Shown: piece by piece, positions 4,152 through 26,413 of the stretch
Position numbering within the stretch: the stretch's first letter is position 1
Layout of the letters: every line of letters starts with the position of its first letter
From: Microbacterium yannicii
GTDB lineage: Bacteria > Actinomycetota > Actinomycetes > Actinomycetales > Microbacteriaceae
DNA: 64,000 nucleotides
Direction of reading: 5' to 3'
Assembly (NCBI RefSeq): GCF_024055635.1
Contig: NZ_JAMXMB010000036.1
Coordinates: 186,001-250,000, forward strand
Notes under the pieces: generated by a model
Databases searched by the model: none
What the model saw: only the letters and a program-made list of their open reading frames with translations
What the model was told of the DNA's origin: nothing
Program-made: the position numbers and the translations under genes

Positions 4152-5330
4152 ATGGTGTCCACGATCACCCCCGTCACATCGAGCCTCACGACCGAGGAGC
4201 GCGCCGCGATCCTCGACGCCGTGCGCGACTTCGCGCAGAACGAGCTCGCACCGCACGCGCTGGAGTGGGACGCACAGTCCTTCTTCCCTCGCGACACCCT
4301 GCGCAGCGCCGGCGAACTCGGGCTCGGCGGCATCTATGCCCGCGACGACCTCGGCGGGTCCGGCCTGTCGCGCTCCGACGCGGCTGCCATCTTCGAGGAG
4401 CTGGCGCAGGGCGATCCGGCGATCGCCGCCTACATCTCGATCCACAACATGGTCGTGTGGATGATCGACACCTACGGCAGCGACGCGCAGCGCACCGAGT
4501 GGCTGCCGCTCCTGACCTCGATGGCGGGCTTCGGCAGCTACTGCCTCACCGAGCCGGGTGCCGGATCGGATGCCGCGGCCATCGCCACGAGCGCCATCCG
4601 CGTCGCGGGTGACGACGGTGGCGACGAGTACGTGCTCACCGGCGTCAAGCAGTTCATCTCCGGCGCGGGCGAGGCATCCGTCTACATCGTCATGGCCCGC
4701 ACGGGCGAACCGGGGGCGCGCGGCATCACGGCGTTCCTCGTGCCCGCTGACACCGCCGGCCTCTCATTCGGCGCGATCGAGCACAAGATGGGCTGGAACG
4801 CGCAGCCGACGCGTCAGGTGATCCTCGACGAGGTGCGCGTGCCGGCGGCGAACATCCTCGGTGCCGAGGGGCAGGGCTTCAAGATCGCGATGTCGGCCCT
4901 CGACGGCGGCCGCATCAACATCGCCGCCTGCTCGCTGGGCGGCGCGCAGTGGGCGCTCGACCGCGCCGTGCGCTACGTGCACGAGCGCTTCACATTCGGC
5001 GAGCCGCTGGCCGAGAGGCAGGCCGTCGTCTTCGCACTCGCCGACATGGCCACGGAGCTGCACGCCGCGCGTGCCCTCGTGCGCGGCGCCGCCGCCGCGC
5101 TCGACGAGAAGGCACCGGACGCCTCGATGCAGTGCGCGATGGCCAAGCGGTTCGCGACCGACGCGGGGTTCACCGTCGCCAACCAGGCACTGCAGCTCCA
5201 CGGCGGCTACGGCTATCTTCACGACTACGGGATCGAGAAGGTGGTGCGCGACCTGCGCGTGCATCAGATCCTGGAGGGGACGAACGAGATCATGCGCGTC
5301 ATCATCGGACGACAGCTGCTCGCCGGCTGA
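4152..5330 (+). CDS. acyl-CoA dehydrogenase (isobutyryl-CoA dehydrogenase-like)
   Basis: A 392-residue FAD-dependent acyl-CoA dehydrogenase acting in the cytosol and passing electrons to ETF. Visible hallmarks are the flavin-contact region YCLTEPGAGSDAAAI, KQFISGAG, the C-terminal GGYGYLHDYGIEKVVRDLR and the catalytic-Glu segment LEGTNEIMR. The GTNEIMR form and the neighbouring 3-hydroxyisobutyrate dehydrogenase fit the isobutyryl-CoA dehydrogenase step of valine breakdown. AAGGAG at 4144-4149 precedes ATG 4152; GTG 4155 would give slightly better spacing. It leads a run of three same-strand genes for short branched acyl-CoA degradation. Confidence 0.9.
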   Translation: MVSTITPVTSSLTTEERAAILDAVRDFAQNELAPHALEWDAQSFFPRDTLRSAGELGLGGIYARDDLGGSGLSRSDAAAIFEELAQGDPAIAAYISIHNMVVWMIDTYGSDAQRTEWLPLLTSMAGFGSYCLTEPGAGSDAAAIATSAIRVAGDDGGDEYVLTGVKQFISGAGEASVYIVMARTGEPGARGITAFLVPADTAGLSFGAIEHKMGWNAQPTRQVILDEVRVPAANILGAEGQGFKIAMSALDGGRINIAACSLGGAQWALDRAVRYVHERFTFGEPLAERQAVVFALADMATELHAARALVRGAAAALDEKAPDASMQCAMAKRFATDAGFTVANQALQLHGGYGYLHDYGIEKVVRDLRVHQILEGTNEIMRVIIGRQLLAG

Positions 5331-5371
5331 CGTTCGTCGACCGTTCCCGAACACCGACGAGGAGATCCGAG

Positions 5372-6271
5372 ATGAAGATCGCATTCCTGGGCCTCGGCCA
5401 CATGGGTCTGCCGATGGCGAAGAATCTGGCGGCCGCCGGCCACGAGGTGACGGGCTTCGACGTCATGCCGGCCGCCGTCGACACCGCCCGTGGCGCGGGG
5501 CTGACCACCGCGGAGTCGGGAACGGATGCCGCCACCGGTGCCGACGTCGTCATCACGATGTTCCAGACCGGCGCGCAGGTGCTCGACGCCTATCGCGGCA
5601 CCGACGGCGCTGCCGGGCTGCTCGAGGTCGCGGCATCCGGAGCACTGTTCATCGACTGCTCGACGATCGCGGTCGATGAGGCGCGCGCCGCGCACGCGCT
5701 CGCCGAAGCCGCGGGCCACCGCTCGCTCGATGCGCCGGTGTCGGGCGGCGTGGTCGGCGCCGAGAACGCGACGCTCGCCTTCATGGTCGGCGGGACCGAT
5801 GAGGACTTCGAGGCCGCGCGTCCCCTGCTCGAGGCGATGGGCCGCCGCGTCGTGCACTGCGGCGGTGCGGGGCTGGGGCAGGCGGCCAAGGTCTGCAACA
5901 ACATGATCCTGGCCGTGTCGCAGATCGCGGTCGCCGAGGCGTTCGTGCTGGGCGAGCGGCTCGGACTCTCGCACCAGGCGCTGTTCGACGTGGCGTCGAA
6001 CGCATCCGGCCAGTGCTGGGCGCTCACGACGAACTGCCCGGTGCCGGGGCCCGTGCCCACCAGCCCCGCGAACCGCGACTACCAGCCGGGCTTCGCGGGC
6101 GCGCTCATGAACAAGGACCTCGGCCTCGCCGAGCACGCCATCTCGGCAACCGGCGTCGAGGCGAGGATGGGCATGCTCGCCCGCGAGATGTATGCGCAGT
6201 ACGCGGCCGGTGAGGGTGCCTCGCAGGACTTCTCGGGCATCATCAACACGATCCGCGCCGACAGCGCCTGA
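5372..6271 (+). CDS. mmsB: 3-hydroxyisobutyrate dehydrogenase
   Basis: A 299-residue NAD-dependent beta-hydroxyacid dehydrogenase that oxidises 3-hydroxyisobutyrate to methylmalonate semialdehyde in valine catabolism. The Rossmann motif [10 protein letters not shown] lies at residues 6-15, the substrate-binding signature DAPVSGG around residue 120, and the catalytic Lys in GQAAKVCNN near residue 170; the end has the usual KDLGLA helix. AGGAG upstream and the short 41-bp gap to the acyl-CoA dehydrogenase suggest one operon. A 3-hydroxyisobutyryl-CoA hydrolase and mmsA are not in the window. Confidence 0.92.
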
Positions 6272-15473: not shown

Positions 15474-16327
15474 GCACGACCATGACGCCTCCTCCTGCCG
15501 CTCCCGAACGACTCCCCGACGCGCCGAAGCCGCCCGCGGGCGGATCACGCGTCGTCGCGATCGTCATCATCGTGCTGGGCGCGGTCGTGCTGCTGGGCGC
15601 GATGACATCGGCGGTGGTCGGGACCATCGCATCGGCATCGGTCCACACGTCGTCGCGTTCCCTCGACGTCGCCGGAGTCGGCGAGCTGGACATCGACGCG
15701 GCGGCAGGAACGCTGCGCGTCGAGTTCACCGAGGTGCAGGAGGCCCAGCTCGAGGTCACCAGCTCGTGGGGCGCCGAGAACTGGCGGTTCGAGCGCGACG
15801 GCGACACGCTCGAGGTGGCATCACCCGATCGGTTCGGATGGTTCGGGTGGCGCGGGTGGTTCGGCGACGGGGGAGCGGATGCCGTGCTGCTGCTGCCCGC
15901 CGCGCTCGAGGGCCTCGACGCGGACGTCTCGCTCGCGGCCGGCGACTTCGTGACCGACGGGGACTTCGGCGAGCTCGACCTGTCGCTCGCAGCCGGGTCG
16001 TTCGACGTGTCGGGCTCGGCGGAGTCGCTGAGCGCCGACGTCAGCGCCGGACGCGGCACGCTCGAGCTCGACGGTGTGGGCGAGGCCGAGCTGACGGTCA
16101 GTGCCGGCTCGCTGGACGCAGTGCTCACCGGCAGCAGGCCGGACGTGATCGAGGCCGACGTGAGCGCCGGCACACTGCGGATGACGGTGCCGGAGGGCGA
16201 CTACGACGTCACATCCGACGTGTCGGCCGGAGAGTTCGAGAACGAGATCGGTTCGACGCCGGGGGCCTCGAGCGTGGTCCGGGTGCAGGTGTCGGCGGGT
16301 CAGGCCGTGCTCAAGGCAGGGCGCTGA
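15470..16327 (+). CDS. DUF4097-type membrane-anchored beta-helix protein
   Basis: A 285-residue protein with a Pro-rich cytosolic head, one transmembrane segment (about residues 28-55) and an outside domain built of repeated beta turns with D-V-S-A-G motifs (ADVSLAAGDF, DLSLAAGSF, ADVSAGRG, TVSAGSL, ADVSAGTL, SDVSAGEF), the pattern of DUF4097/LiaF-type adhesin-like domains. The ATGA overlap with the response regulator makes it the third gene of the operon. It may modulate the sensor kinase or respond to envelope damage; this is inferred. Confidence 0.85.
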   Translation: MSTTMTPPPAAPERLPDAPKPPAGGSRVVAIVIIVLGAVVLLGAMTSAVVGTIASASVHTSSRSLDVAGVGELDIDAAAGTLRVEFTEVQEAQLEVTSSWGAENWRFERDGDTLEVASPDRFGWFGWRGWFGDGGADAVLLLPAALEGLDADVSLAAGDFVTDGDFGELDLSLAAGSFDVSGSAESLSADVSAGRGTLELDGVGEAELTVSAGSLDAVLTGSRPDVIEADVSAGTLRMTVPEGDYDVTSDVSAGEFENEIGSTPGASSVVRVQVSAGQAVLKAGR

Positions 16328-16433
16328 CGCGCCGGCAGTGCCGGCTCGGGCCGGGCTCGGCCTCGGAAGGGCTCGGGCTCTGCTTGGCTCTGCGGCGCCG
16401 TTCCGGGTCCGGTGATGAGCCCGGTCGAGGCGT

Positions 16434-17210
16434 TCAGGCCGAGGCAGCGGCCTTGCCGGCGGCGAACCCCTCGGCGTAGGCCTCGTCAGCACCCAGGCGG
16501 AACATGTCGCGCTCGAGCGGACGCACGATCGACCGGGCACCGGGGAGGTCCAGACCCCCGACGAGGTCGGCGCGTCCGCGCACCACGGCGACCGGGCGGC
16601 GCGCTGCCTTGCCCTTGACGAGATCGGCGGCTGCCGCCAGCTCGTCCGCGACGCACGGCATCGTGACGATGAGGGGACGGCCCTCGGCATCCGTCCCCCC
16701 GCGGAGGTCCTCGAAGACCTGCACGCCGCCCGCACCGATCGCGTGGTCGGTCTGGCCCTCGCGCCACGCCCTGCCCAGGGTGTCCGACACGATCACGCCG
16801 ACCTGGACGCCCAGCCGCTCGCGCAGCCCGGCCGCGATCGCCCGGGCCGATGCGTCGGGGTCGACCGGAAGCAGCAGCACGGTTCCTGCGGGGGTGTTCG
16901 AGGCATCGACGCCTGCGGCCGCCGAGACCATGCCCAGGCGGTTCTCGACGATGCGGGTGGTGAATCCGGTGGGTGTCGTGCGGGATGCCACGACCCGCAC
17001 CGACTCGGAGGTGATCGCGTCCTCGCGATCATCGGCCTCGACGAATCGGTCCTCCGCCTTCGACACGATCTTGGAGGTCACGACGAGGATGTCGCCGTCC
17101 GCGAGCTCCTGCCCCCCGGCGTGCACGATGATGTCGACGAGGTCGGCACCGGCCTCGATCTCGGGGATGCCTTCGAGAGGCCAGACGGTGAGCGCGGTGC
17201 GAGACGGCAT
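16434..17210 (-). CDS. cofE: coenzyme F420-0:L-glutamate ligase
   Basis: A 258-residue GTP-dependent ligase that adds gamma-linked glutamates to F420-0. Diagnostic parts are [76 protein letters not shown] and [25 protein letters not shown]. It lacks the C-terminal nitroreductase extension of mycobacterial FbiB, so it is the single-domain form. Other F420 genes are not in the window. Start ATG 17210 has AAGACT 6 nt upstream. Confidence 0.9.
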
Positions 17211-17235
17211 GGGTCCAGTCTTCCGGAAACGACGA

Positions 17236-17268
17236 AGGGGCGCGTCCGGCGGAACCGGACACGCCCCT
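17236..17268. terminator. rho-independent-type hairpin between acetyltransferase and cofE
   Basis: A 14-bp stem (AGGGGCGCGTCCGG with CCGGACACGCCCCT, one mismatch) and a 5-nt loop, followed on the minus strand by TTCGTCGTTTCC. It would end the minus-strand acetyltransferase transcript before cofE, which then needs its own promoter. Confidence 0.75.
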
Positions 17269-17291
17269 CGTGAAAAGCGGACAGCGGGCGA

Positions 17292-17798
17292 TCAGCGCAC
17301 GAAGCGGACTTCGGTGAGCGTCTCACCGAGGAACGGCTCGGTGTGCGTCGCGCCGTCGAGCGTGAAGCCGTTGCGCGCGTAGAAGCGGTGCGCGCGGGGG
17401 TTGTCTTCGGCGACCCAGAGGTACAGGCCCTCGGCGGGCTCGACGACCGCGTCGAAGAGGCGCTGTCCGATGCCGGTGCCGTGGAACGCGTCCAGCAGGT
17501 AGATGAAGTACAGCTCGCGGAACCGCGGCGCATCCTTGTCGCGGGCGGGGCCGGAGCCCGCGAACCCGACGATCTCGCCGTCCACGAGGGCGGCGAACAT
17601 CTTGAACTCCGGGCCCTGGACGGCCCAGTGGGTCCAGAGCTCGGCGAGGCGCTTGGGTGAGACCGCCTCGAGCGCGGCCTTGCTGATCAGGTGGTCGTAT
17701 GTCTCGTGCCAGGCGGTCGCGTGAACGCGGCCGAGGGCCTCCGCGTCGACGTCACGCACCGGACGGACGACGATGTCGGTCTGGGTTTCGGCTTCCAT
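17292..17798 (-). CDS. GNAT family N-acetyltransferase
   Basis: A 168-residue GNAT protein. The acetyl-CoA loop is FHGTGIGQRLFDAV, preceded by the strand FRELYFIYLLDAF; the C-terminal strand LYLWVAEDNPRAHRFYARNGF is characteristic of the family. It resembles general small-molecule N-acetyltransferases; the substrate cannot be predicted. TAGAGT lies exactly 6 nt before ATG 17798. Confidence 0.9.
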   Translation of the reverse strand: MEAETQTDIVVRPVRDVDAEALGRVHATAWHETYDHLISKAALEAVSPKRLAELWTHWAVQGPEFKMFAALVDGEIVGFAGSGPARDKDAPRFRELYFIYLLDAFHGTGIGQRLFDAVVEPAEGLYLWVAEDNPRAHRFYARNGFTLDGATHTEPFLGETLTEVRFVR

Positions 17799-17804
17799 GG
17801 CCAG

Positions 17805-17810
17805 ACTCTA
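17805..17810 (-). promoter_or_regulatory. -10 hexamer TAGAGT, leaderless start at 17798
   Basis: TAGAGT (minus strand) with a 6-nt gap (CTGGCC) to the ATG of the GNAT gene; no purine-rich ribosome binding site is present. Confidence 0.5.
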
Positions 17811-17987
17811 CGCGGCTCGGCGCGAGACCAGAAATCCGGAGAACACCCGGTGAACACCGTATGGCGAACGGATGCCGCGGCCCTGGCGTGACGCACTTCA
17901 CGGCGCAGGCGGTGCGAGCGCCAGGTGTCCAGGAGCGCCCACATGTCAGGATTCGACAATCGAATGGGCGGATCCGTCGAGGATCGC

Positions 17988-17993
17988 TACCAT
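17988..17993 (+). promoter_or_regulatory. -10 hexamer TACCAT, leaderless start at 18002
   Basis: TACCAT lies 8 nt before GTG 18002, which favours that codon over GTG 18008 or ATG 18011 as the thioesterase start. Confidence 0.4.
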
Positions 17994-18001
17994 CACACCT
18001 C

Positions 18002-18562
18002 GTGAACGTGATGTGGCGGACCCTGATCGTGATGCTCACCGCGCGCCGGCGCCTGCGCCGCGGAGGGCGACTCGAGCCCACCGGGATCAGCCGCATTCGG
18101 CTGACCACGCTGCTCACCGACATCGACCTGCTGCGCCATATGAACAACGGCCGCTACCTGTCCCTGTTCGATCTCGGCCGCTGGGACCTCCTCATCCGCA
18201 CGGGTCTCTGGGATGTCATGAAGACCCACGGCTGGTACGCCGTCGTGTCGAGCGAGACCGTCACCTTCCGCAAGTCCCTCAACCTCTGGCAGCGCTTCGA
18301 CGTCGAGTCGCGCATGATCGGCCACGACAACAAGGCCGTGTACCTCGAGCACCGCGCCGTGGTCGATGGCGAGGTCTACGCCCGCGCCATCATCCGGGCG
18401 CGGATGATGAAGCGAGCGGGCGGAACACTGCCGCACGAGGAGCTGTTCGCCGCCATCGGGCGCCCTGAGGGCGTGCCGGAGGTGGACGAGTGGGTGCACG
18501 AGTGGGCTGCGGCATCCGCTCTTCCACCGACGCGTGCGCAGGCGCCGAGCGTCTGGAGCTGA
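18002..18562 (+). CDS. acyl-CoA thioesterase family (4HBT-like hotdog) protein
   Basis: A 186-residue hotdog-fold protein. The central signature TDIDLLRHMNNGRYLSLFDLGRWDLL is that of the 4HBT_2/THEM6-like thioesterases, with the conserved Asp and HMNN in the helix that forms the active site, followed by strands WYAVVSSETVTFRKSLNLW and NKAVYLEHRAVVDGEVYARAI. It probably hydrolyses acyl-CoA in the cytosol. Three possible starts lie within 9 nt; GTG 18002 is chosen from its promoter spacing. Confidence 0.82.
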   Translation: MNVMWRTLIVMLTARRRLRRGGRLEPTGISRIRLTTLLTDIDLLRHMNNGRYLSLFDLGRWDLLIRTGLWDVMKTHGWYAVVSSETVTFRKSLNLWQRFDVESRMIGHDNKAVYLEHRAVVDGEVYARAIIRARMMKRAGGTLPHEELFAAIGRPEGVPEVDEWVHEWAAASALPPTRAQAPSVWS

Positions 18563-18588
18563 CTTCCGGCCGGGCTACGTGGGATCGG

Positions 18589-18894
18589 CTAGGCGGGTGG
18601 GTCGGGCTCGGGCACCATCGTCAGACCGGCGGGGGAGTTGGCGGCCTTCGTGAGGGCCTCGATCCAGGCCGGGTTGAGGCGCGGCTGGCGTCCGCCGAAG
18701 TACTCGAACGTCAGCGTGACGTTCGGGCTCAGCCAGATCGACGTGCGGCCGAGGCCGCTGCGCATCGGGTCGGTCCAGGTGAAGGGGAATGCCTCGCCGC
18801 GCCGTAGCTTCGCCCAGATCACCTGCTGCAGGTGCGCGAGGATCCGGTCGTCGAACGAGACAGTGACCCGTGAATCGTAGGTGAGCGTTCCCAT
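18589..18894 (-). CDS. DUF7882 family protein (copy 1)
   Basis: A 101-residue protein (MGTLTYDSRVTVSFDDRI...). It matches the short Microbacteriaceae family often labelled ATP-dependent DNA ligase in databases, now DUF7882; no ligase motif (KxDG) is present. Conserved parts are FDDRILAHLQQVIWAKLRRGE, IWLSPNVTLTFEYFGG and the C-terminal WIEALTKAANSPAGLTMVPEP. A paralogue lies 1.3 kb away. ATG 18894 is chosen over a longer frame because the family starts with MGTL and TACTGT lies 7 nt upstream. Function unknown. Confidence 0.8.
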   Translation of the reverse strand: MGTLTYDSRVTVSFDDRILAHLQQVIWAKLRRGEAFPFTWTDPMRSGLGRTSIWLSPNVTLTFEYFGGRQPRLNPAWIEALTKAANSPAGLTMVPEPDPPA

Positions 18895-18901
18895 CGTCTC
18901 C

Positions 18902-18907
18902 ACAGTA
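18902..18907 (-). promoter_or_regulatory. -10 hexamer TACTGT, leaderless start at 18894
   Basis: TACTGT (minus strand) with a 7-nt gap to the MGTL start of the first DUF7882 gene. Confidence 0.45.
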
Positions 18908-19031
18908 GTCGTCGGTCCGGCGGATTCACGCCTATCAGCGTGCGTCCGCAGACGGGGAATCGCATCATAGTCGTTTGGCGGCACTTTGTCTGGTGTTGCG
19001 CCGGAACACGAAGCTCGTTGACGCTGGGTGG

Positions 19032-19820
19032 ATGGTCAGCTCGCCTCAACTCACTCGGGACCTGCGTTCGGCGCTCTCAGCCGGCGAGCTGTCCGTCGCA
19101 TTCCAACCTCAGTTCGATCTCGTGGGACCGATCGCAACGACCGGTGCGGTGCTCCCCGAGCCGGTCGCCGTCGAAGCGCTCTGCCGCTGGAACCACGCCC
19201 TGCTGGGTGCGGTGTCGCCCGAGCTGTTCATCCCGCTCGCGGAAGCCGGCGAGTTCCTCGACGAGATGGACGCCCACGTGTTCGCCCGCGCCGCGGCGCA
19301 GCTCACGCAGTGGCGGGCCGAAGGTCACCTGCTCAGCCTCGCGGTGAACGCGTCTCCGGCGCACTTCTCGTCGAAGTACGCCCACGCGGTTCTCGCCGGG
19401 CTCGATGCGCTCGACCTCGATCCCGCCGCGGTGACGATCGAGATCACCGAGGCGCCCTCACCGCAGCTTCGACCGCCGATGCTGGCCGCGATCCAGTCGC
19501 TCCACGCCGTCGGCGTCGCGATCTCGGTCGATGACTACGCCGCCGGCGACACCACCGTCGCCATGCTCGAGGCGATCCCCATCGACGAGGTCAAGATCGA
19601 CCGATCGCTCACCCAGCGCACGGACGCCGCCGCCGACGACGCGATCGCCGCGGTCGTGGAGAGCAGCGGCGCTCACGGCTGGCGCGTGGTCGCCGAAGGG
19701 ATCGAGACCATCGCGGATCTGGAACGCTCGCGCGCGCGGGGGTGCCACCGCGGTCAGGGATACCTGTTGGGCATGCCCATGTCGGCTGACGACATGGATG
19801 TCCGACTCGCCAAGGTCTGA
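19032..19820 (+). CDS. EAL domain protein, probable c-di-GMP phosphodiesterase
   Basis: A 262-residue stand-alone EAL domain without membrane helices or sensor. The signature glutamate is in VAVEALCRW; further metal and catalytic residues are visible in AVNASP, IEITEAP, VDDYAAGD, IPIDEVKIDRS, VVAEGIET and GCHRGQGYLLGMP. The usual DDFGTGYSS loop is replaced by DDYAAGDTT, which could weaken catalysis. It would act on cytosolic c-di-GMP, opposite the phytochrome-GGDEF protein nearby. The start is uncertain; a TTG at 18975 would add 19 residues. Confidence 0.85.
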   Translation: MVSSPQLTRDLRSALSAGELSVAFQPQFDLVGPIATTGAVLPEPVAVEALCRWNHALLGAVSPELFIPLAEAGEFLDEMDAHVFARAAAQLTQWRAEGHLLSLAVNASPAHFSSKYAHAVLAGLDALDLDPAAVTIEITEAPSPQLRPPMLAAIQSLHAVGVAISVDDYAAGDTTVAMLEAIPIDEVKIDRSLTQRTDAAADDAIAAVVESSGAHGWRVVAEGIETIADLERSRARGCHRGQGYLLGMPMSADDMDVRLAKV

Positions 19821-19908
19821 CGACCCCGCGGCCTCCTTGGAGGTCGATCCGCCTCCGGGCCCGAGTGCTCAGGCCGTCAGTTCTGCGCGGATGCGCAGCG
19901 CCCGAGAC

Positions 19909-20166
19909 TCAGAGCCCGTAGTCCGTCGCGTCGTCGGAGGACTCCTCGGCGGTGCCGGTCGCATCGCCCACCTCGAACTGGGACCACGTGACGGGCATCC
20001 CCGGTGAGAACAGGATGTCGACGCCCGGCCCACCCCGCAGCGGCGGGATGTTCACATAGCCGCCGCCGGCCTTGATCGCTTCGAGGATATTGCCCTTGAG
20101 CTCCGTCACCGGGTCGGGGAGGAAATAGTCGCGTCCGTCGACAGTCAGTCGGTTCACGATCGCCAT
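19909..20166 (-). CDS. conserved small hypothetical protein
   Basis: An 85-residue acidic protein (MAIVNRLTVDGRDYFLPDPVTELKG...). It has a beta-strand, a helix (ELKGNILEAIKAGGGYVNIP) and a strand with FSPGMPVTWSQFEV, then a Glu/Ser/Asp tail. This pattern is like a single-domain DUF4062-free Microbacteriaceae protein, but no family is recognised with confidence. TACTGT lies 6 nt before ATG 20166. It stands between the EAL gene and the second DUF7882 copy, and is divergent from the latter. Confidence 0.6.
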   Translation of the reverse strand: MAIVNRLTVDGRDYFLPDPVTELKGNILEAIKAGGGYVNIPPLRGGPGVDILFSPGMPVTWSQFEVGDATGTAEESSDDATDYGL

Positions 20167-20172
20167 GGCCCC

Positions 20173-20178
20173 ACAGTA
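20173..20178 (-). promoter_or_regulatory. -10 hexamer TACTGT, leaderless start at 20166
   Basis: Same hexamer as before the first DUF7882 gene, here with a 6-nt gap (GGGGCC) to ATG 20166. Confidence 0.45.
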
Positions 20179-20197
20179 CCCGCCCTTCGCCGCCGGT

Positions 20198-20203
20198 TAG
20201 GAT
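20198..20203 (+). promoter_or_regulatory. -10 hexamer TAGGAT, leaderless start at 20210
   Basis: TAGGAT with a 6-nt gap (CGAGCG) to GTG 20210; the divergent small gene leaves only 43 bp for both promoters. Confidence 0.5.
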
Positions 20204-20209
20204 CGAGCG

Positions 20210-20512
20210 GTGGGCACACTTCATTACGGCTCCCCGCCGGCCTCGTTCCAGATCGACGACCGCGCGCTCGCTCACATCGAACTCGTGGTGATGGCGAAGC
20301 TGCGCCGCCGCGAGAACCTGTCGTTCTCACTGGTCGACGAGCAGACCTCCGTGCGGCAGGCGATGTGGATCTCACCGGTCACCACGCTGCGCTTCTCCTA
20401 CGACGGCCCGATGCCGGAGATCAACCGGCTGTGGCTCCAGGAGCTCGTCGACACCGCCAACTCCTCCAGCGGACTGCGGCTCGTGCCCGAGCCGGAGCTG
20501 CCCTCACGCTGA
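20210..20512 (+). CDS. DUF7882 family protein (copy 2)
   Basis: A 100-residue paralogue of the gene at 18589-18894: MGTLHYGS, then DDRALAHIELVVMAKLRRREN, MWISPVTTLRFSYDG and LWLQELVDTANSSSGLRLVPEPELP. It shares the order and the spacing of all conserved blocks with copy 1 but differs at many positions, so the duplication is old. GTG start. Its last 9 bp overlap tail-to-tail with the phytochrome gene. Function unknown. Confidence 0.8.
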   Translation: MGTLHYGSPPASFQIDDRALAHIELVVMAKLRRRENLSFSLVDEQTSVRQAMWISPVTTLRFSYDGPMPEINRLWLQELVDTANSSSGLRLVPEPELPSR

Positions 20513-22456
20513 GACGCGTCCGCCGCCGTCACGCTTCGCCCGGTACATCGCCGCATCCGCGGCATCGATGAGCGCTCCGGGTGAACTGCCGCGCTCGGTG
20601 GCGACGACGCCGGCCGACGCGTTCACGGTGATCTGGGTTCCGCGAACGACGATCGGCTCCCTGATGGCGGCGACCGCGCGCCCGGCGATCGCGGCCGCCT
20701 CGGCCTGGCCTGCGCCGACGCATACCATCACGAACTCGTCGCCGCCCAGCCGCACGACGGCGTCCGAGCCGCGTGCCACGCCGCTCAGGCGCCGGCCGAT
20801 CGCCGCGAGAACCGCATCCCCCATCTCGTGCCCGTGTGTGTCGTTGACCGCCTTGAAGTCGTCGAGATCGAGGAACACGACGGCGAGCGCCTTCTCGGAG
20901 CCCTCCAGGAGCTCCTCCAGGCGGTCGTCGAGGAAGCGGCGGTTGTGCAGGCCCGTGAGCGGGTCCCGCAGTGCCAGCTCGGCGAGTTCGGCTTGCGTGC
21001 GGGCCACCATGGCCGAACGGATCTCCTCACCGAGCTCGAACGCGTCCTGCGCGTGCTCGCCCCACGGCAGGCTCCGGCCGGTGACGCTCTCGCGCCAGGC
21101 CGAGAACGACCGCCGCGGCGAGAGGGTGTGGTCGCGGTTCGCGGCGCTCTGATCTCCGAGCCAATCGACGGATCGCGCCACCTCGCTGCGGACGAACACG
21201 AGCATGTCGCCTTCGCCGCCGAGCGGGACGATGAGCAGCCCCGTGACGTCCGGGATCTCGACGGCGAGCTCCGGCCGTTCGAGGGGAAGGGACTCCCACA
21301 CGAACCGGCCCACCTCGAGTTCCTCGACCAGGGCGAACAGTCGGTCGGCCGGGGGGACGACGCCGACGGTGTGCACCAGATCGCCGATGCGCAGCAGGGC
21401 TCCGTCGGCAGGCACGACGTCGAGCACGGTGCGGGAACCCGTCATCAGCACCGTCCCCACGTCGGCGCGACTGTACAGCGGGGCGATGATCGACATCCGC
21501 CGCTCGCGGGATTCGAGCTGCCGACGCAGGCGATGGATCTGCTGGGCGGCGGTCAGCTGCGTGCCCACCTGCGTCGCCAGGACTTCGAGCGCACGCCGCA
21601 GGAGCACGGGCATCCGGCGGGGTGAACGGTGCGCGCAGGTGAACATGCCCACGAGGTGGTCGTCGATGACGATGCCGAACGACACCGTCGACGCCTGACC
21701 CATGTTCCGCATGAACTGCAGGTGATGCGGCGAGACGGCCCGAAGCTCTGCGGCGCCGAGATCCACGGGAGCCGCCTCGGGCAGCAGGGTGTGAAGAGCC
21801 AGGCCCCGGTCCTCCGTGTCGGCAATCACGCGCGAGCGCTTGTCGATGTAGAGGGCGCGCGCCTGCGAGGGGATGTCGGATGCCGGAAAGTGGAGTCCGA
21901 AGTACGGCTCCATGTCGGACTCGCGCTCGTCGGCGACGATCTGCCCGTGCCCGTCCTCGTGGAACTGGTAGCACATGACCCGGTCGAAGCCCGTGATGTC
22001 CTTGATCTCGCGGGCCGCGCGACGACGCAGCTCGTCGGGATCGGAGATCCCGGCCAGACGTTGGATCGCGCTGACCACACCGGTGCGCACGTAATCCAGG
22101 TCGGGCACGATGGGCTCGAGCTCGAGGAGCAGGGGACTCGTGCCGCGGTGTGCGATGACGTCGTACGCCCGGCCCTCGAACTCCGCGCGCACGGGGTCGA
22201 CAGCGACCCCCTCGCTGATCGCCCGGATGAGCATCTCGCTGCCGGACTCGCGCAGGTCACGGCCGAGCCAGTGCTCGACGTTCTCGCTGGCCACGACGAC
22301 GACACCCGTCGGCTCGTCGAGGCCGAAGAGGATCCCGTGGGACTGGATCCGGCCGATGGTGCGGATCGGCTCGGTCGCGCATTCCTGCAGGCGCAGATTC
22401 TCTGCGGCATCGCGTGCGCGGTCGCCGTCGAAGATCCGTGAAGAAAGGTCGGTCAA
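20504..22456 (-). CDS. bacteriophytochrome with GGDEF output (red/far-red light-controlled diguanylate cyclase)
   Basis: A 650-residue photoreceptor. PAS-like start with bilin-attaching Cys26 in LQECATEPIRTIGRIQSHG; GAF domain with DRVMCYQFHEDGHGQIVADE, HFPASDIPSQARALY near residue 190 and SPHHLQFMRNMG; PHY domain with tongue motif SPRRSFSAW; C-terminal GGDEF domain (FLDLDDFKAVNDTHGHEMGD, RLGGDEF near residue 570). All residues needed for biliverdin binding and catalysis appear present, so it should make c-di-GMP under light control. The start is TTG, with GAAGGG 8 nt upstream. No heme oxygenase gene lies nearby, so biliverdin must come from elsewhere. Confidence 0.92.
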   Translation of the reverse strand: MTDLSSRIFDGDRARDAAENLRLQECATEPIRTIGRIQSHGILFGLDEPTGVVVVASENVEHWLGRDLRESGSEMLIRAISEGVAVDPVRAEFEGRAYDVIAHRGTSPLLLELEPIVPDLDYVRTGVVSAIQRLAGISDPDELRRRAAREIKDITGFDRVMCYQFHEDGHGQIVADERESDMEPYFGLHFPASDIPSQARALYIDKRSRVIADTEDRGLALHTLLPEAAPVDLGAAELRAVSPHHLQFMRNMGQASTVSFGIVIDDHLVGMFTCAHRSPRRMPVLLRRALEVLATQVGTQLTAAQQIHRLRRQLESRERRMSIIAPLYSRADVGTVLMTGSRTVLDVVPADGALLRIGDLVHTVGVVPPADRLFALVEELEVGRFVWESLPLERPELAVEIPDVTGLLIVPLGGEGDMLVFVRSEVARSVDWLGDQSAANRDHTLSPRRSFSAWRESVTGRSLPWGEHAQDAFELGEEIRSAMVARTQAELAELALRDPLTGLHNRRFLDDRLEELLEGSEKALAVVFLDLDDFKAVNDTHGHEMGDAVLAAIGRRLSGVARGSDAVVRLGGDEFVMVCVGAGQAEAAAIAGRAVAAIREPIVVRGTQITVNASAGVVATERGSSPGALIDAADAAMYRAKRDGGGRVSA

Positions 22457-22679
22457 CGCATGCCCTTCGGTACATGTGGGGGGACGGGGGGAACTGCGTT
22501 GGCGAGAGTCCCATCATAGGCGCGAGCCGAGTCGGCGTCGAAGAGCCCTCCCCGGCGGGTGGCCCGCTAGCGCACGGCGATGTGCGGCGCAAGCGGTTTG
22601 CCCGGGTGGTCTGCGTGCTGTTGCCTGGACGATCGGAGGCGCCGGCGATCCCGCCGGTGCGGGAGGGAAGGAGTGCGCC

Positions 22680-23321
22680 GTGGATACGAGCACCCTCATC
22701 TGGATCATCGTCGGCATCGCCATCGTCCTGGTCATCGTCGTCGTCGCCCTGCTGGTGACGGCGAAGGGGCGCCGCGCGCGCCGGATGGAGCAGCAGCACG
22801 GGCGCGCCGAGAAGCTTCGCGCCGACGCGCGGGAGACCGAGCTGCAGGCCCGTGAGCACGAGGCGGAAGCAGCCCGCGCCCGTGCCGACGCTGCGGCGGC
22901 CTCCGCGGCCGCCGAGGCCGCGAAGGCGCGCGCCGCCGAGGCGTCGATCGATGCCGAGCGCCGCGCCGGAACGATCGACGACCACAGCACGGAGGCCGAG
23001 AAGCTGCGCCAGCAGCAGGCGGAGACGTTGCGCAAGGCGGACGATGTCGACCCGTACGTCGGCGATGACGGGCGAGCGGCGGCGAGCACCGGCGCTGCGG
23101 TCACCGACGACCGCGCGGCGGTCCGTGACGGTGACACTGCCGGCGACCGCGCGGTCGTCCGCGACGCCGACACGGTCGACGACCGTACGCCGGCCGGCGA
23201 GACGAGCGGGGGCGACCGCGCCGCGGTGCGCGACGCCGACACGGTCGACGATCGCACCACGGTCGCCGACGAGCAGATCACCCGGCCGCCGGCCCCGCCG
23301 ACGCGCAACGACCGCGCCTGA
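22680..23321 (+). CDS. membrane-anchored coiled-coil protein
   Basis: A 213-residue protein with one N-terminal membrane helix (LIWIIVGIAIVLVIVVVALLV split by no charge), a basic RRARR stop-transfer and a long Ala/Glu/Arg-rich coiled coil (about residues 30-110). The rest is an acidic disordered tail with three copies of a D-R-A-V-V-R-D-A-D-T-V-D-D-R-T motif. GTG 22680 follows a strong GGAGGGAAGGAG. Architecture resembles ATP synthase b-like stalk or scaffold proteins, but no family is recognised. Confidence 0.7.
   Translation: MDTSTLIWIIVGIAIVLVIVVVALLVTAKGRRARRMEQQHGRAEKLRADARETELQAREHEAEAARARADAAAASAAAEAAKARAAEASIDAERRAGTIDDHSTEAEKLRQQQAETLRKADDVDPYVGDDGRAAASTGAAVTDDRAAVRDGDTAGDRAVVRDADTVDDRTPAGETSGGDRAAVRDADTVDDRTTVADEQITRPPAPPTRNDRA
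23109..23255 (+). repeat. imperfect coding repeat
   Basis: Three units of about 40 bp (near 23109, 23145 and 23214) sharing GACCGCGCGGTCGTCCGCGA and GCCGACACGGTCGACGA; units two and three are nearly identical. They encode the D-R-A-V-R-D-A-D-T-V-D-D-R motif in the tail of the coiled-coil protein. Confidence 0.7.
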
Positions 23322-23354
23322 CGCCCACGTCGAGCACGACGGCACGCGGCCCGC

Positions 23355-23360
23355 TAGCGT
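23355..23360 (+). promoter_or_regulatory. -10 hexamer TAGCGT, leaderless start at 23367
   Basis: TAGCGT with a 6-nt gap (GGGGGC) to GTG 23367. Confidence 0.45.
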
Positions 23361-23366
23361 GGGGGC

Positions 23367-24776
23367 GTGATCGCCGTGCTCGACGTGCTCCGCACCGCGG
23401 GCCGCCTGCTGTGGCGGCACTGGCCGGCGCTGCTCGCGTGGTATGCGGCAGGGGTGCTCGGACGCTATGTCGTGATCGAGGCGGCCGGCTTCGTCGGCGC
23501 CTACAACGCCGTCGCCGGGTCCCTCCTGCTGCCCCTGGCGATCCTCTCGCGCCTGGTGGCGCTCGTCGCGATGCTCCTCGTCGTGCGGGACGGGATGCGG
23601 CAGCTGGATGCCATCTCCCCGCTGCCGGAGGACGCCGCCACGCGTCGCCGGCAGTTCGCGGACGCGCTCCTCGCCGGCATCCTGCCGTTCTTCGCCTTCT
23701 ATGCGGCGTGGGGTCTCCTGCGCGAGGATGCCGCGGCGTACTCGGCGCGCGCGCTGGAGGTGAGCGCGGGGCTCAACTTCACCGCGATCGTGGACAAGAC
23801 CGACCCGGCGGGCGACGGCTTGGCGGGCGCGCTGACGCTCACCCCGCTGACGTTCGCGATCGTGGTCGTCGCGTTCGCGCTGCGGTGGGTGCTGAAGCGC
23901 TATCGTCAGCGACTGCCGCGCTGGTTCGGCGTCATCGTGGTCTACCTCGAAGCGGTCTGGGTGTACTTCGCCGCCCTCGTCCTGTCTGTCGCGATCGAAG
24001 CCGTCACCGGGTGGGTGCAGACGCGGCAGGCGATGGTGTGGCTCGACGACCTCCGGGCCACCGTCTCCGCGGCGTTCGCACCGCTCGCCTGGATCTGGGA
24101 GGGCGTGGAGTGGTTGCTCGGCGAAGCCGGCGGCATCATCCTCCTTCCTCTCGCGTGGCTCGCGATCGCCGGCGTCGTGTACGGGCAGGCGGTCGCGCCC
24201 GAGCCGGTGCCCACGGATGCGCTCGGGGGCGCGGTGGCGGCGCGCGTTCGCAGCCGCTACCGCACGCTGCCGGCCCGGCTGCGTGCGCGCCTCCGTGACA
24301 TCTGGGCGGACATCGCCTCGCGGTTCACCCCGATCGGCGAGGCGATCGTGCTGATGTGGCGAGCCGGCCCGGTGCTCATCGGCGGATTCGTGCTGCTCTA
24401 CACCGTGCTGCTGGCCGTGCAGGGGTGGGCGGAATGGGGTCTGCTGCGCCTCATCGGCCCGCACGACCTCAACGACTTCTGGCTCGTGTTCGATCAGGCG
24501 ATCTTCCTCGTCGTCCCGGTGCTCATCGAGCCCATCCGCATTGCGCTGGTGGCGGGCGGCTACGACGCCGTCATCGGCCGGCTGGTCTCGCGCCGCGCGG
24601 CCGCGGCCGCGCCCTCGAGTGCGGTCGCGCCCTCGACGGAGCAGGCGGTGCCTGCGGCACCCGCGGAATCAGAGAGCGATCACGGCTCGACGACGAAGCG
24701 GACGTTGTCGGGCCAGAGTTCGGACGAGATCACGTCCACCCCGAACGGGCCGACGGCGTCTCGCGGCACGACGTAG
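23367..24776 (+). CDS. large integral membrane protein of unknown function
   Basis: A 469-residue membrane protein with about eight hydrophobic segments (for example residues 17-37, 45-75, 105-120, 165-185, 200-225, 250-280, 335-360 and 385-405). A cytosolic-looking arginine-rich loop (ARVRSRYRTLPARLRARLRD) is at about residue 300. The last 60 residues are Ala/Ser/Thr-rich and end inside the coding region of the convergent next gene: the two overlap for 97 bp. No family is recognised. Confidence 0.7.
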   Translation: MIAVLDVLRTAGRLLWRHWPALLAWYAAGVLGRYVVIEAAGFVGAYNAVAGSLLLPLAILSRLVALVAMLLVVRDGMRQLDAISPLPEDAATRRRQFADALLAGILPFFAFYAAWGLLREDAAAYSARALEVSAGLNFTAIVDKTDPAGDGLAGALTLTPLTFAIVVVAFALRWVLKRYRQRLPRWFGVIVVYLEAVWVYFAALVLSVAIEAVTGWVQTRQAMVWLDDLRATVSAAFAPLAWIWEGVEWLLGEAGGIILLPLAWLAIAGVVYGQAVAPEPVPTDALGGAVAARVRSRYRTLPARLRARLRDIWADIASRFTPIGEAIVLMWRAGPVLIGGFVLLYTVLLAVQGWAEWGLLRLIGPHDLNDFWLVFDQAIFLVVPVLIEPIRIALVAGGYDAVIGRLVSRRAAAAAPSSAVAPSTEQAVPAAPAESESDHGSTTKRTLSGQSSDEITSTPNGPTASRGTT

Positions 24777-25207
24777 CGCACGTCGAGGGTGTACGGCTCG
24801 GTCAGATCCGACGAGCACGATGCCGGACGCAGCGGGTCCCAGTCCGTGGTGAGCGACGACGTGTCGGGGTCCCACTCGCGCTGCGCCCCTTCCAGCTCGC
24901 GGAGCATCGGCTCCGCGCAGGCGAGTCCCGATGCGCCGGGGTCGATATCGATCTGCACTCTGAGCACCCTGGCATTGCTCGGCGCGAGCGGGTCGTCGAC
25001 GAAGTCCGCCACCGCGGGACCGACCTGCGCCTTCCCGTAGTGCGCGTCCTGCCCCGGTTCGACCACGACGGGCGCGGCCGGGACGCCGGAGTCCGCCTCG
25101 CTCCACTCGTGCCAGGCGACCGTCGCCCCCAGCGCCGGAAGGACGACTACCAGCGCGCCGAGCGCCACGGCATTCCTACGCCACCACCCGGTCACGGGTT
25201 CGCCCAT
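24680..25207 (-). CDS. membrane-anchored extracytoplasmic protein
   Basis: A 175-residue protein with a single N-terminal membrane segment (residues 12-32) and an outside domain rich in beta-strands; two Cys (LACAEPM and PASCSSDL) may form a disulfide. It is the third gene of a minus-strand operon whose members share the same plan and start positions overlapping the upstream stops (16 bp here). Its 3' end overlaps the convergent membrane gene by 97 bp. Function unknown. Confidence 0.7.
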   Translation of the reverse strand: MGEPVTGWWRRNAVALGALVVVLPALGATVAWHEWSEADSGVPAAPVVVEPGQDAHYGKAQVGPAVADFVDDPLAPSNARVLRVQIDIDPGASGLACAEPMLRELEGAQREWDPDTSSLTTDWDPLRPASCSSDLTEPYTLDVRYVVPRDAVGPFGVDVISSELWPDNVRFVVEP

Positions 25208-25758
25208 CCCGTCTCGGGAAGCTCATCGCGAGGAGCCGTGGGAACCGCGTCGAGGTCGAATTCCACGACGATCATCGAATCGAGCCGCCGGTCGGAGGAC
25301 AGCGCGAGCTCCAGTTCGGCGGTTCCCGAGTCCACGTCGGCCGGCAGCTCGAACGCGAGACCGCCACGCGTGGCGACGCCCGCCGACAGCGGCTGTCCGG
25401 ACAGCGAGTCCGGACGTTCGCTGGCGCCGTAGCGCACGCCGTCGACAACGATCTCGGCGTGACGAAGACTCACGAGGTCCTCCGAGGTCACCGCCGCGAC
25501 GTCGACATCGACGACGAGCCAGTTGCCCTCTGCCGACCAGTCGCCCGCGTGCAGTTCGGACGTCCGACGGACGTCGGTGACGGTGGCGGCGAGGTTGCGT
25601 CCGATGCCCTTCTCGCCGACGGCCACGGGCACCGGCATGGGGGCCTGGATCTGCTCTTCGCCGGGCGTGGCGAGGGCGACGAACCACGCGGCGATCACGA
25701 GACCCGCCCCGATGGACCAGGCCGCCCAACGCGGCAGTGTGCGATCAGCCCTGGCCAT
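25192..25758 (-). CDS. membrane-anchored extracytoplasmic protein, middle gene of operon
   Basis: About 188 residues: an N-terminal membrane helix (WAAWSIGAGLVIAAWFVALA) and a beta-rich outside domain containing NWLVVDVDVAAV and VVDGVRYGASERPDSL, similar in layout to DUF4352-like immunoglobulin-type domains. ATG 25758 is preferred over ATG 25764 because GGAGG then lies 6 nt away. It overlaps both neighbours by a few bases, which suggests coupled translation and a shared complex. Confidence 0.65.
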   Translation of the reverse strand: MARADRTLPRWAAWSIGAGLVIAAWFVALATPGEEQIQAPMPVPVAVGEKGIGRNLAATVTDVRRTSELHAGDWSAEGNWLVVDVDVAAVTSEDLVSLRHAEIVVDGVRYGASERPDSLSGQPLSAGVATRGGLAFELPADVDSGTAELELALSSDRRLDSMIVVEFDLDAVPTAPRDELPETGWANP

Positions 25759-26413
25759 CGGCATCCTCCGCGTCCGCACCGGCTCCCACATCCTCGACCT
25801 CGACCATGACCACGGCGTCGCGCACCGGATCGGACCACTGCTGGCCGGTCAAGACGAACGAGCCGGTGTACAGCGACCGCGCGTAGAGCGTGACGGGCAC
25901 GTCATCACCTGCCTCGAACGCGCCGCCCGGAACGACCCATGCGAAGACGATGCGCGCGGGCACATGCGGCTGCAGCCATGGTCCGAACGTCGTGTCGTCG
26001 TAGCGCACCGCACCCGTGTCGGCGGTTGCCTTGACGCCCTCGACGGTGAGTGTCGCGGCGATCCCTTCGCCGCTCGCCGCCACGGGGCGATCCCACTCGT
26101 TCTCGACGTCGACGATGATCGCGAGGACACGCTCCCACGTCTCGGGGTAGAGGCCGGCGTCAGGCAGCTCGTCGATGAGCACCGCCCGCTGCACCGTGAG
26201 CGAGCGCTCGTCCGTGACGTGCGTGTCACCCGGCTGAAGCTGGGCGATCTCGGGCGTGGCCGCGGTCGCCAGCCCGCCGAAGGCCGCCGTCGCGAGGAGG
26301 AACGCGCCCGTGGCGATGGCTGCGAACCATCGCGTCGGAACGCGATCGGTCGCGGCGCGTACCCAGGCGAACCGACGTTTCGGCTGCGCGGGGGCGGTCG
26401 GCGACTCGGACAC
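25745..26413 (-). CDS. membrane-anchored extracytoplasmic protein, first gene of operon
   Basis: A 222-residue protein with a basic cytosolic head, one membrane segment (about residues 30-52) and an outside domain with RVLAIIVDVENEWDRPV, DDTTFGPWLQPHVPARIVFAWVVP split over several strands, and VVMVEVEDV at the end. The plan matches the two genes after it; DUF4352-like telokin/Ig folds are the closest recognisable type. GTG start with TAGGCT 6 nt upstream. Confidence 0.65.
   Translation of the reverse strand: MSESPTAPAQPKRRFAWVRAATDRVPTRWFAAIATGAFLLATAAFGGLATAATPEIAQLQPGDTHVTDERSLTVQRAVLIDELPDAGLYPETWERVLAIIVDVENEWDRPVAASGEGIAATLTVEGVKATADTGAVRYDDTTFGPWLQPHVPARIVFAWVVPGGAFEAGDDVPVTLYARSLYTGSFVLTGQQWSDPVRDAVVMVEVEDVGAGADAEDADGQG

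Follow-up and report, generated by a model that had tools for sequence, protein, structure and literature searches.

Within a 64,000-nucleotide stretch of the Microbacterium yannicii genome (contig NZ_JAMXMB010000036.1, positions 186,001 to 250,000; hereafter the window), five adjacent genes encode a phytochrome-GGDEF protein, a stand-alone EAL protein, an 85-residue protein that we call sm85, and two DUF7882 proteins (DUF7882a and DUF7882b). We propose that this block is a single cyclic di-GMP (c-di-GMP) signalling unit in which a constant core is combined with an exchangeable input, and we put the probability of this reading at roughly 0.6. The case for it is that EAL, sm85, and DUF7882 are kept together while the cyclase input differs. 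As far as our literature search goes, a family-wide core with exchangeable cyclases appears to be undescribed: we found no report of the block in the open-access literature (subscription papers mostly fell outside the scope of the search). A preliminary description of this DNA had correctly placed every gene that it named.

We examined the conservation of the block in a set of 198 genomes that includes that of M. yannicii. Sixteen other genomes of the genus encode a full-length ortholog of the phytochrome (58–91% identity), and the order and orientation of the five genes are kept in all 16, a linkage that exceeds chance. Orthologs of both DUF7882 types, a and b, are present in each of these 16 blocks. 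Among the 80 named loci listed, all 14 with at least 50% identity also contain the block (11 from Microbacterium, including one metagenome-assembled genome, and three from Agromyces); because some named loci belong to the same species as the 16 genomes, the two counts are not independent. Two loci (L051 and L055) keep the block in a 20-kb locus where no other queried window gene is matched at >40% coverage. Strong sm85 matches came from 21 genomes of this set, all within the genus – the 17 block genomes and four others (G012, G047, G079, and G110) – and three further genomes gave weak matches only.

In three of these genomes (G047, G079, and G110), the DUF7882-sm85-EAL set adjoins an alpha/beta hydrolase and a PAS-GAF-GGDEF protein. 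The G047 hydrolase matches Bacillus subtilis RsbQ (1wom) at an E-value of 3e-86. RsbQ has been described together with RsbP-PAS domains fused to several outputs, including a diguanylate cyclase (PMC3183031). This bipartite sensor matches the alternative input, as the G047 cyclase has an N-terminal PAS domain and a GGDEF output. It is, however, not encoded in this window, and in the portion of PMC3183031 consulted EAL is mentioned solely as a fusion domain of certain cyclases.

A profile search for sm85 in 299 genomes of the family returned matches in 56; 40 matches scored below 1e-36, two of them from the same genus. The remaining 38 strong loci come from 19 other genera and were viewed in surrounding DNA of mostly 12 kb, in some cases ended by a contig end. 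In our manual tally, an EAL gene lies near sm85 at 36 of the 38 loci and a DUF7882 gene at 34. The input is RsbQ at 21 loci (leaving out a 27% match at L293), phytochrome-GGDEF at six, and PAS-GAF-GGDEF without RsbQ at two, with no cyclase seen at nine. PAS-GAF-GGDEF was seen at 19 of the 21 RsbQ loci; L292 and L295 are cut by contig ends. Partner genes often lie 2–3 kb or less from sm85, and some lie farther away. Identity to the window copy is 61–87% for sm85 and 36–49% for EAL (the better of two EAL queries). The preliminary description had called the block a light-controlled module, but the unit as such is not confined to light: RsbQ outnumbers the phytochrome at the family loci, and one genome of the genus (G012) keeps the other four genes without it. 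At one family locus with no cyclase seen (L320), a Ser/Thr protein kinase gene (4222–5532) lies between EAL and a DUF7882-sm85 pair.

We also placed the EAL proteins in a tree of 63 EAL domains, which leaves out L289 (short EAL) as well as L308 and L323 (no EAL). Input labels were set by hand, and the two PAS-GAF-GGDEF loci without RsbQ (L303 and L318) were grouped with the cyclase-less rows. One supported group contains 26 of the 30 phytochrome-linked domains and two cyclase-less ones (L089 and L306). L304 falls with L309 outside this main group, as do L293 and L299, whose placement is unsure given their long branches. The phytochrome label requires at least four changes on the starred branches.

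Judged by its sequence, the window phytochrome belongs to a known kind, PadC. A single chain contains the Pfam domains in the order PAS_2-GAF-PHY-GGDEF, and among solved structures IsPadC (5llw) is the best match (E-value 1.3e-65, spanning residues 25–648). Cys26, PASDIP, the SPxH histidine, PRRSF, GGDEF, and the R562xxD565 I-site are invariant in all 12 aligned rows (12 of the 17 genus orthologs), bearing out the Cys26, PASDIP, PRRSF tongue, and GGDEF features that had been reported for this protein. Orthologs from M. trichothecenolyticum DSM 8608 (81% identity) and M. mangrovi MUSC 115 (58%) both lie within the same block. Red light raises the activity of the PadCs of M. trichothecenolyticum, Agromyces sp. 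Leaf222, and M. mangrovi 2.2–13 fold (PMC9587094). The window protein resembles this PadC-4 branch (MtPadC, AsPadC, and MmPadC) in domain order, cysteine, PASDIP, and tongue. Its linker shows no gap relative to the M. trichothecenolyticum ortholog, and that of the L055 ortholog is three residues shorter – lengths that fit classes -4 and -7 in PMC9587094. Residue 248, which by eye is the equivalent of Tyr263 in DrBphP, is phenylalanine in all 12 aligned orthologs, a feature that the preliminary description had passed over. A subfamily with this natural phenylalanine includes M. trichothecenolyticum PadC, and an engineered Y263F substitution lowered dynamic range (PMC9630206); the window PadC shares the phenylalanine with this subfamily.

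A red/far-red cyclase beside a phosphodiesterase, as the preliminary description proposed, is thus well supported by predicted functional residues, by a heme oxygenase, and by assays of two Microbacterium PadCs (PMC9587094). The view that such control is little studied in Microbacterium was only partly right, because those red-light assays are published. We saw no description of the genes next to these PadCs in PMC9587094, the main text of which does not contain the terms ‘genomic context’, ‘gene neighbourhood’, or ‘DUF’. As a source of biliverdin, the genome encodes one heme oxygenase, on another contig. Heme oxygenase is present in all 17 block genomes and, more generally, in 96 of 119 genomes of the genus, and we therefore rejected it as a specific partner of the block.

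The EAL protein finds its best match among solved structures in 8arv (E-value 2.7e-34). E48, N106, E137, D167, D168, K188, E222, and Q242, which we take to be the EAL catalytic residues, are invariant in all 15 aligned EAL rows (15 of 21 available). A family search identified two EAL genes in this genome. Phytochrome, GGDEF, and EAL are likewise coupled in PadC-EAL fusions such as BphG1 (PMC9587094); unlike in those fusions, EAL is here a separate gene with small-protein neighbours.

The third core component, sm85, contains 44 invariant columns in 21 aligned rows and a strongly conserved core of ~66 amino acids. Across 66 sequences, the segments RLTVDGxDYFLP and GGGYVxIPPLRxGPG are near-invariant and the C-terminal residue is leucine, isoleucine, or valine in 61; the tail, which could be marked in 64 sequences, averages 21 residues, of which 6.3 are acidic and 0.4 basic. 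Sequence searches of Pfam and the PDB gave chance-level matches only, and Foldseek returned none at an E-value up to 0.001. The AlphaFold2 (AF2) model has the strand order bbabbb and a mean predicted local distance difference test (pLDDT) score of 75.9. Its closest structure is the octameric Rv3208A (Z 5.7, root-mean-square deviation 2.5, 60 aligned residues; best row of the next protein 3.5), though a Z under 8 may reflect merely a common arrangement. We take Rv3208A to be a DUF3107 protein. Comparison of the sm85 and DUF3107 profiles gave an hhalign probability of 31%, with a score reached by 1 of 200 and 0 of 300 column shuffles, and no DUF3107 (PF11305) hit was among the matches listed for the 21 sm85 members at an E-value up to 10. 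Comparison of the sm85 and DUF7882 profiles gave 18%, with 1 of 300 shuffles scoring as high, where earlier, small alignments had given nothing; the two proteins are also predicted to share a strand order. These comparisons are suggestive of a distant relationship of sm85 to both DUF3107 and DUF7882. More divergent sm85-like small proteins are encoded in other Microbacteriaceae (L083–L088, at 28–40% identity, L325, and L326), and some of them appear by eye to be intermediate towards DUF3107.

DUF7882 entered Pfam through a study that presented it as a putative transducer of CryoRhodopsins and modelled a pentamer resembling PH-domain rings (PMC12227055). That study is the only mention of DUF7882 or PF25355 that we found in the open-access literature. 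The two window copies score 122.8 and 105 bits against a Pfam cut-off of 27. The preliminary description had recognized this pair and the 85-residue gene around EAL and had given them no role; all three prove to be conserved parts of the unit. The AF2 monomer model of DUF7882a (bbabbb-a, pLDDT 87.6) has no Foldseek match at an E-value up to 0.001, and the best Z in a second look was 2.0. Comparison of DUF7882 with DUF3107 gave no signal, with 116 of 200 shuffles scoring as high (3 of the 34 sequences behind this DUF7882 profile had been translated from the wrong strand). DUF7882 is multicopy, with eight copies in this genome and matches in 113 of the 119 genus genomes. At five loci in this genome with copies away from EAL and GGDEF genes, we scanned one neighbour each, finding an AraC regulator, a TetR regulator, a luciferase-like monooxygenase, a cation efflux protein, and an EI24 protein. 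DUF7882 genes also lie within 6 kb of two of five distantly related PadC genes, in Frondihabitans (L123, 4849–5151) and Okibacterium (L120, 11967–12254).

Like the CryoRhodopsin transducer, the window pair belongs to PF25355 and lies next to a photoreceptor (PMC12227055). It differs in that two diverged copies accompany c-di-GMP enzymes in a genome with no match to rhodopsin (PF01036). We examined DUF7882 at 70 rhodopsin loci (30 top-, 20 mid-, and 20 low-scoring, the weakest left out), which were sorted by score rather than by a CryoRhodopsin motif. DUF7882 adjoins rhodopsin at 10 of the 20 low-scoring loci and at none of the 20 mid-scoring or 30 top-scoring loci, the last viewed with 1.5-kb flanks only. 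An antisense hit at L223 (+ strand) was discarded, and the ten loci stood when a profile free of wrong-strand rows was used. By eye, the ten DUF7882-linked rhodopsins (among L217–L236) share an extended C-terminal tail with an EVYLAEGA-like segment and a later RPP (KPP in L218), and this type of tail is absent from the other 30 of the 40 rhodopsins examined, including the ten low-scoring ones without DUF7882. The idea that the acidic sm85 tail copies this rhodopsin docking tail was unsupported, as we saw no EVYLAEGA-like segment in sm85.

In the unit that we propose, the phytochrome would bind biliverdin at Cys26 and red light would raise the activity of its GGDEF cyclase, as its residues and the published ortholog assays suggest. 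The neighbouring EAL protein, judging from its residues, would hydrolyse c-di-GMP, and the pair would determine how much signal is present locally. This state would then be passed on by an adaptor or receptor layer made up of sm85 and the two DUF7882 proteins. We infer such a layer because of the conserved linkage, the link between DUF7882 and CryoRhodopsins, and the near absence of PilZ, the only receptor class searched genome-wide, which was found in one of the 119 genus genomes (83% complete) and not in this one. Elsewhere in the Microbacteriaceae, RsbQ and a PAS-GAF-GGDEF cyclase, rather than light, would feed this EAL/sm85/DUF7882 core. In a broader version of this idea, sm85 and DUF7882 would be small ring-forming proteins related to each other and would make up a general adaptor/receptor layer for signalling across the Microbacteriaceae. 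This layer would connect by turns to CryoRhodopsins, to phytochrome cyclases, and to RsbQ/PAS-GAF cyclases, and would provide a c-di-GMP-responsive output in PilZ-less bacteria. We regard this version as unlikely, and the lack of c-di-GMP genes at rhodopsin loci lowers it further.

Several observations weigh against a single unit with a constant core. The five genes alternate in strand and do not form one operon. More distant PadCs (42–48% identity) lack the arrangement: five named ones at 42–44% identity (from Mycetocola, Okibacterium, Demequina, Frondihabitans, and Naasia) have no sm85/EAL block alongside, and four others (L056–L059; 43–47%, two of the same genus) have no block. Conversely, G012, which has no phytochrome match, retains the remaining four genes with the same flanking genes on either side. 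The nine family loci without a cyclase in the DNA examined (one ended by a contig end) have no visible input, L323 contains sm85 alone, and L308 pairs RsbQ/PAS-GAF-GGDEF with neither EAL nor DUF7882. The four changes on the EAL tree may include losses (L089 and L306), and L293 and L299 are long rows of unsure placement, so that separate phytochrome pairings could number as few as two. The light-state spectra of this PadC group are non-canonical and its dynamic ranges smaller (PMC9587094), and by analogy with Y263F the natural phenylalanine at the Tyr263 position could reduce dynamic range. Finally, around six of the eight DUF7882 copies of this genome, ~9–10 kb on each side gave neither an EAL nor a GGDEF match – we accordingly rejected the idea that all DUF7882 copies are linked to light or c-di-GMP – and the DNA examined at the 70 rhodopsin loci showed no match to GGDEF, EAL, or phytochrome. 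c-di-GMP genes beside rhodopsins were thus rejected as a pattern, and the rhodopsin setting lends no support to a c-di-GMP role for DUF7882.

Some of these observations would be expected if only the phytochrome and EAL were a functional pair, with the sm85 and DUF7882 genes being vertically inherited neighbours that serve something else. The many DUF7882 copies away from c-di-GMP genes fit this explanation, as does the finding that genes flanking the block are likewise syntenic in most genus loci. We consider it quite unlikely, since in 19 other genera the core persists alongside different cyclases and since sm85 is better conserved than EAL at the family loci. The small proteins could instead have a more direct part, with sm85, DUF7882, or both acting as c-di-GMP receptors that bind nucleotide from the neighbouring cyclase. 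Retention of a cyclase and EAL in a genus with PilZ in a single genome is consistent with this role, as are the near-invariant sm85 segments. It seems fairly unlikely all the same: sm85 and DUF7882 match no known receptor family or fold, DUF7882 occurs beside rhodopsins that have no c-di-GMP gene in the DNA examined, and the genome-wide search covered PilZ rather than other receptor classes such as BldD, RsiG, MshEN, and riboswitches.

A different doubt concerns the phytochrome, which in vivo might be no light switch at all and rather a largely constitutive cyclase, or one controlled by redox or apo state, with EAL setting the level. Both Phe248 in all aligned orthologs and the modest dynamic ranges of the PadC-4 group (2.2–13 fold; PMC9587094) lean this way. 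Red light activates the members of the group that have been assayed, among them those of two Microbacterium species (PMC9587094), and Cys26 and the tongue motif are invariant in the aligned rows, which makes this alternative improbable. Read as a c-di-GMP unit with a constant core, the block connects DUF7882, published as a putative rhodopsin transducer and still unexplained, both with c-di-GMP enzymes and with another photoreceptor class. It names a fixed set of partners in a genus where PilZ, a common c-di-GMP receptor domain, is almost absent, and makes it possible to test, in Microbacterium and related bacteria, what reads c-di-GMP and by what route light reaches it. The M. trichothecenolyticum PadC, already assayed, gains candidate native partners of interest to optogenetics.

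The five genes span 18589–22456 of the window in the order DUF7882a, EAL, sm85, DUF7882b, phytochrome-GGDEF. DUF7882a/EAL and sm85/DUF7882b are divergent pairs, the latter with starts 43 bp apart; EAL/sm85 and DUF7882b/phytochrome are convergent pairs, the latter with overlapping stops. The EAL and phytochrome stops are 0.68 kb apart, in agreement with the 0.7 kb given previously. Judging from orthologs, DUF7882a probably starts at ATG 18894 and EAL at ATG 19032.

Features of the five-gene block, with coordinates in the window (AF2, AlphaFold2; ORF, open reading frame)
Feature	Coordinates	Strand	Basis and remarks
DUF7882a, 101 aa	18589..18894	-	Pfam PF25355, E 5.9e-36; longest ORF to 18984
13-bp element TGTCTGGTGTTGC	18987..18999	+	Divergent DUF7882a/EAL upstream region; 32 nt before EAL ATG
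Stand-alone EAL phosphodiesterase (predicted), 262 aa	19032..19820	+	Pfam EAL, E 1.3e-48, scored on longer ORF from 18975
sm85, 85 aa	19909..20166	-	No Pfam family; conservation, AF2, tail statistics
DUF7882b, 100 aa, GTG start	20210..20512	+	Pfam PF25355, E 2e-30
PadC-type phytochrome-GGDEF, 650 aa, TTG start	20504..22456	-	Pfam PAS_2, GAF, PHY, GGDEF

We observed by eye a TAnnnT-like box a few bases upstream of the starts of sm85 and the DUF7882 genes in many genus orthologs, a proximity that suggests leaderless messages. An exact TGTCNGGTGTTGC is found upstream of EAL in 12 of the 16 loci L040–L055 and in L089. The 13-bp element occurs in 48 of 357 loci, many of which are repeats of the same places. 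Besides its exact copy, the window contains a second with two mismatches; at least two matches at this tolerance occurred in 19 of 100 shuffles. No riboswitch or other known RNA was detected at the gathering threshold in 16000–26000. Beside the phytochrome, a gene at 22680–23321 (longer ORF 22110–23321) drew just two NCBIfam matches, both far under the cut-offs. By eye its product has a membrane-anchored, repeat-rich look, and the gene is found on the same side in 13 of the 16 block loci.

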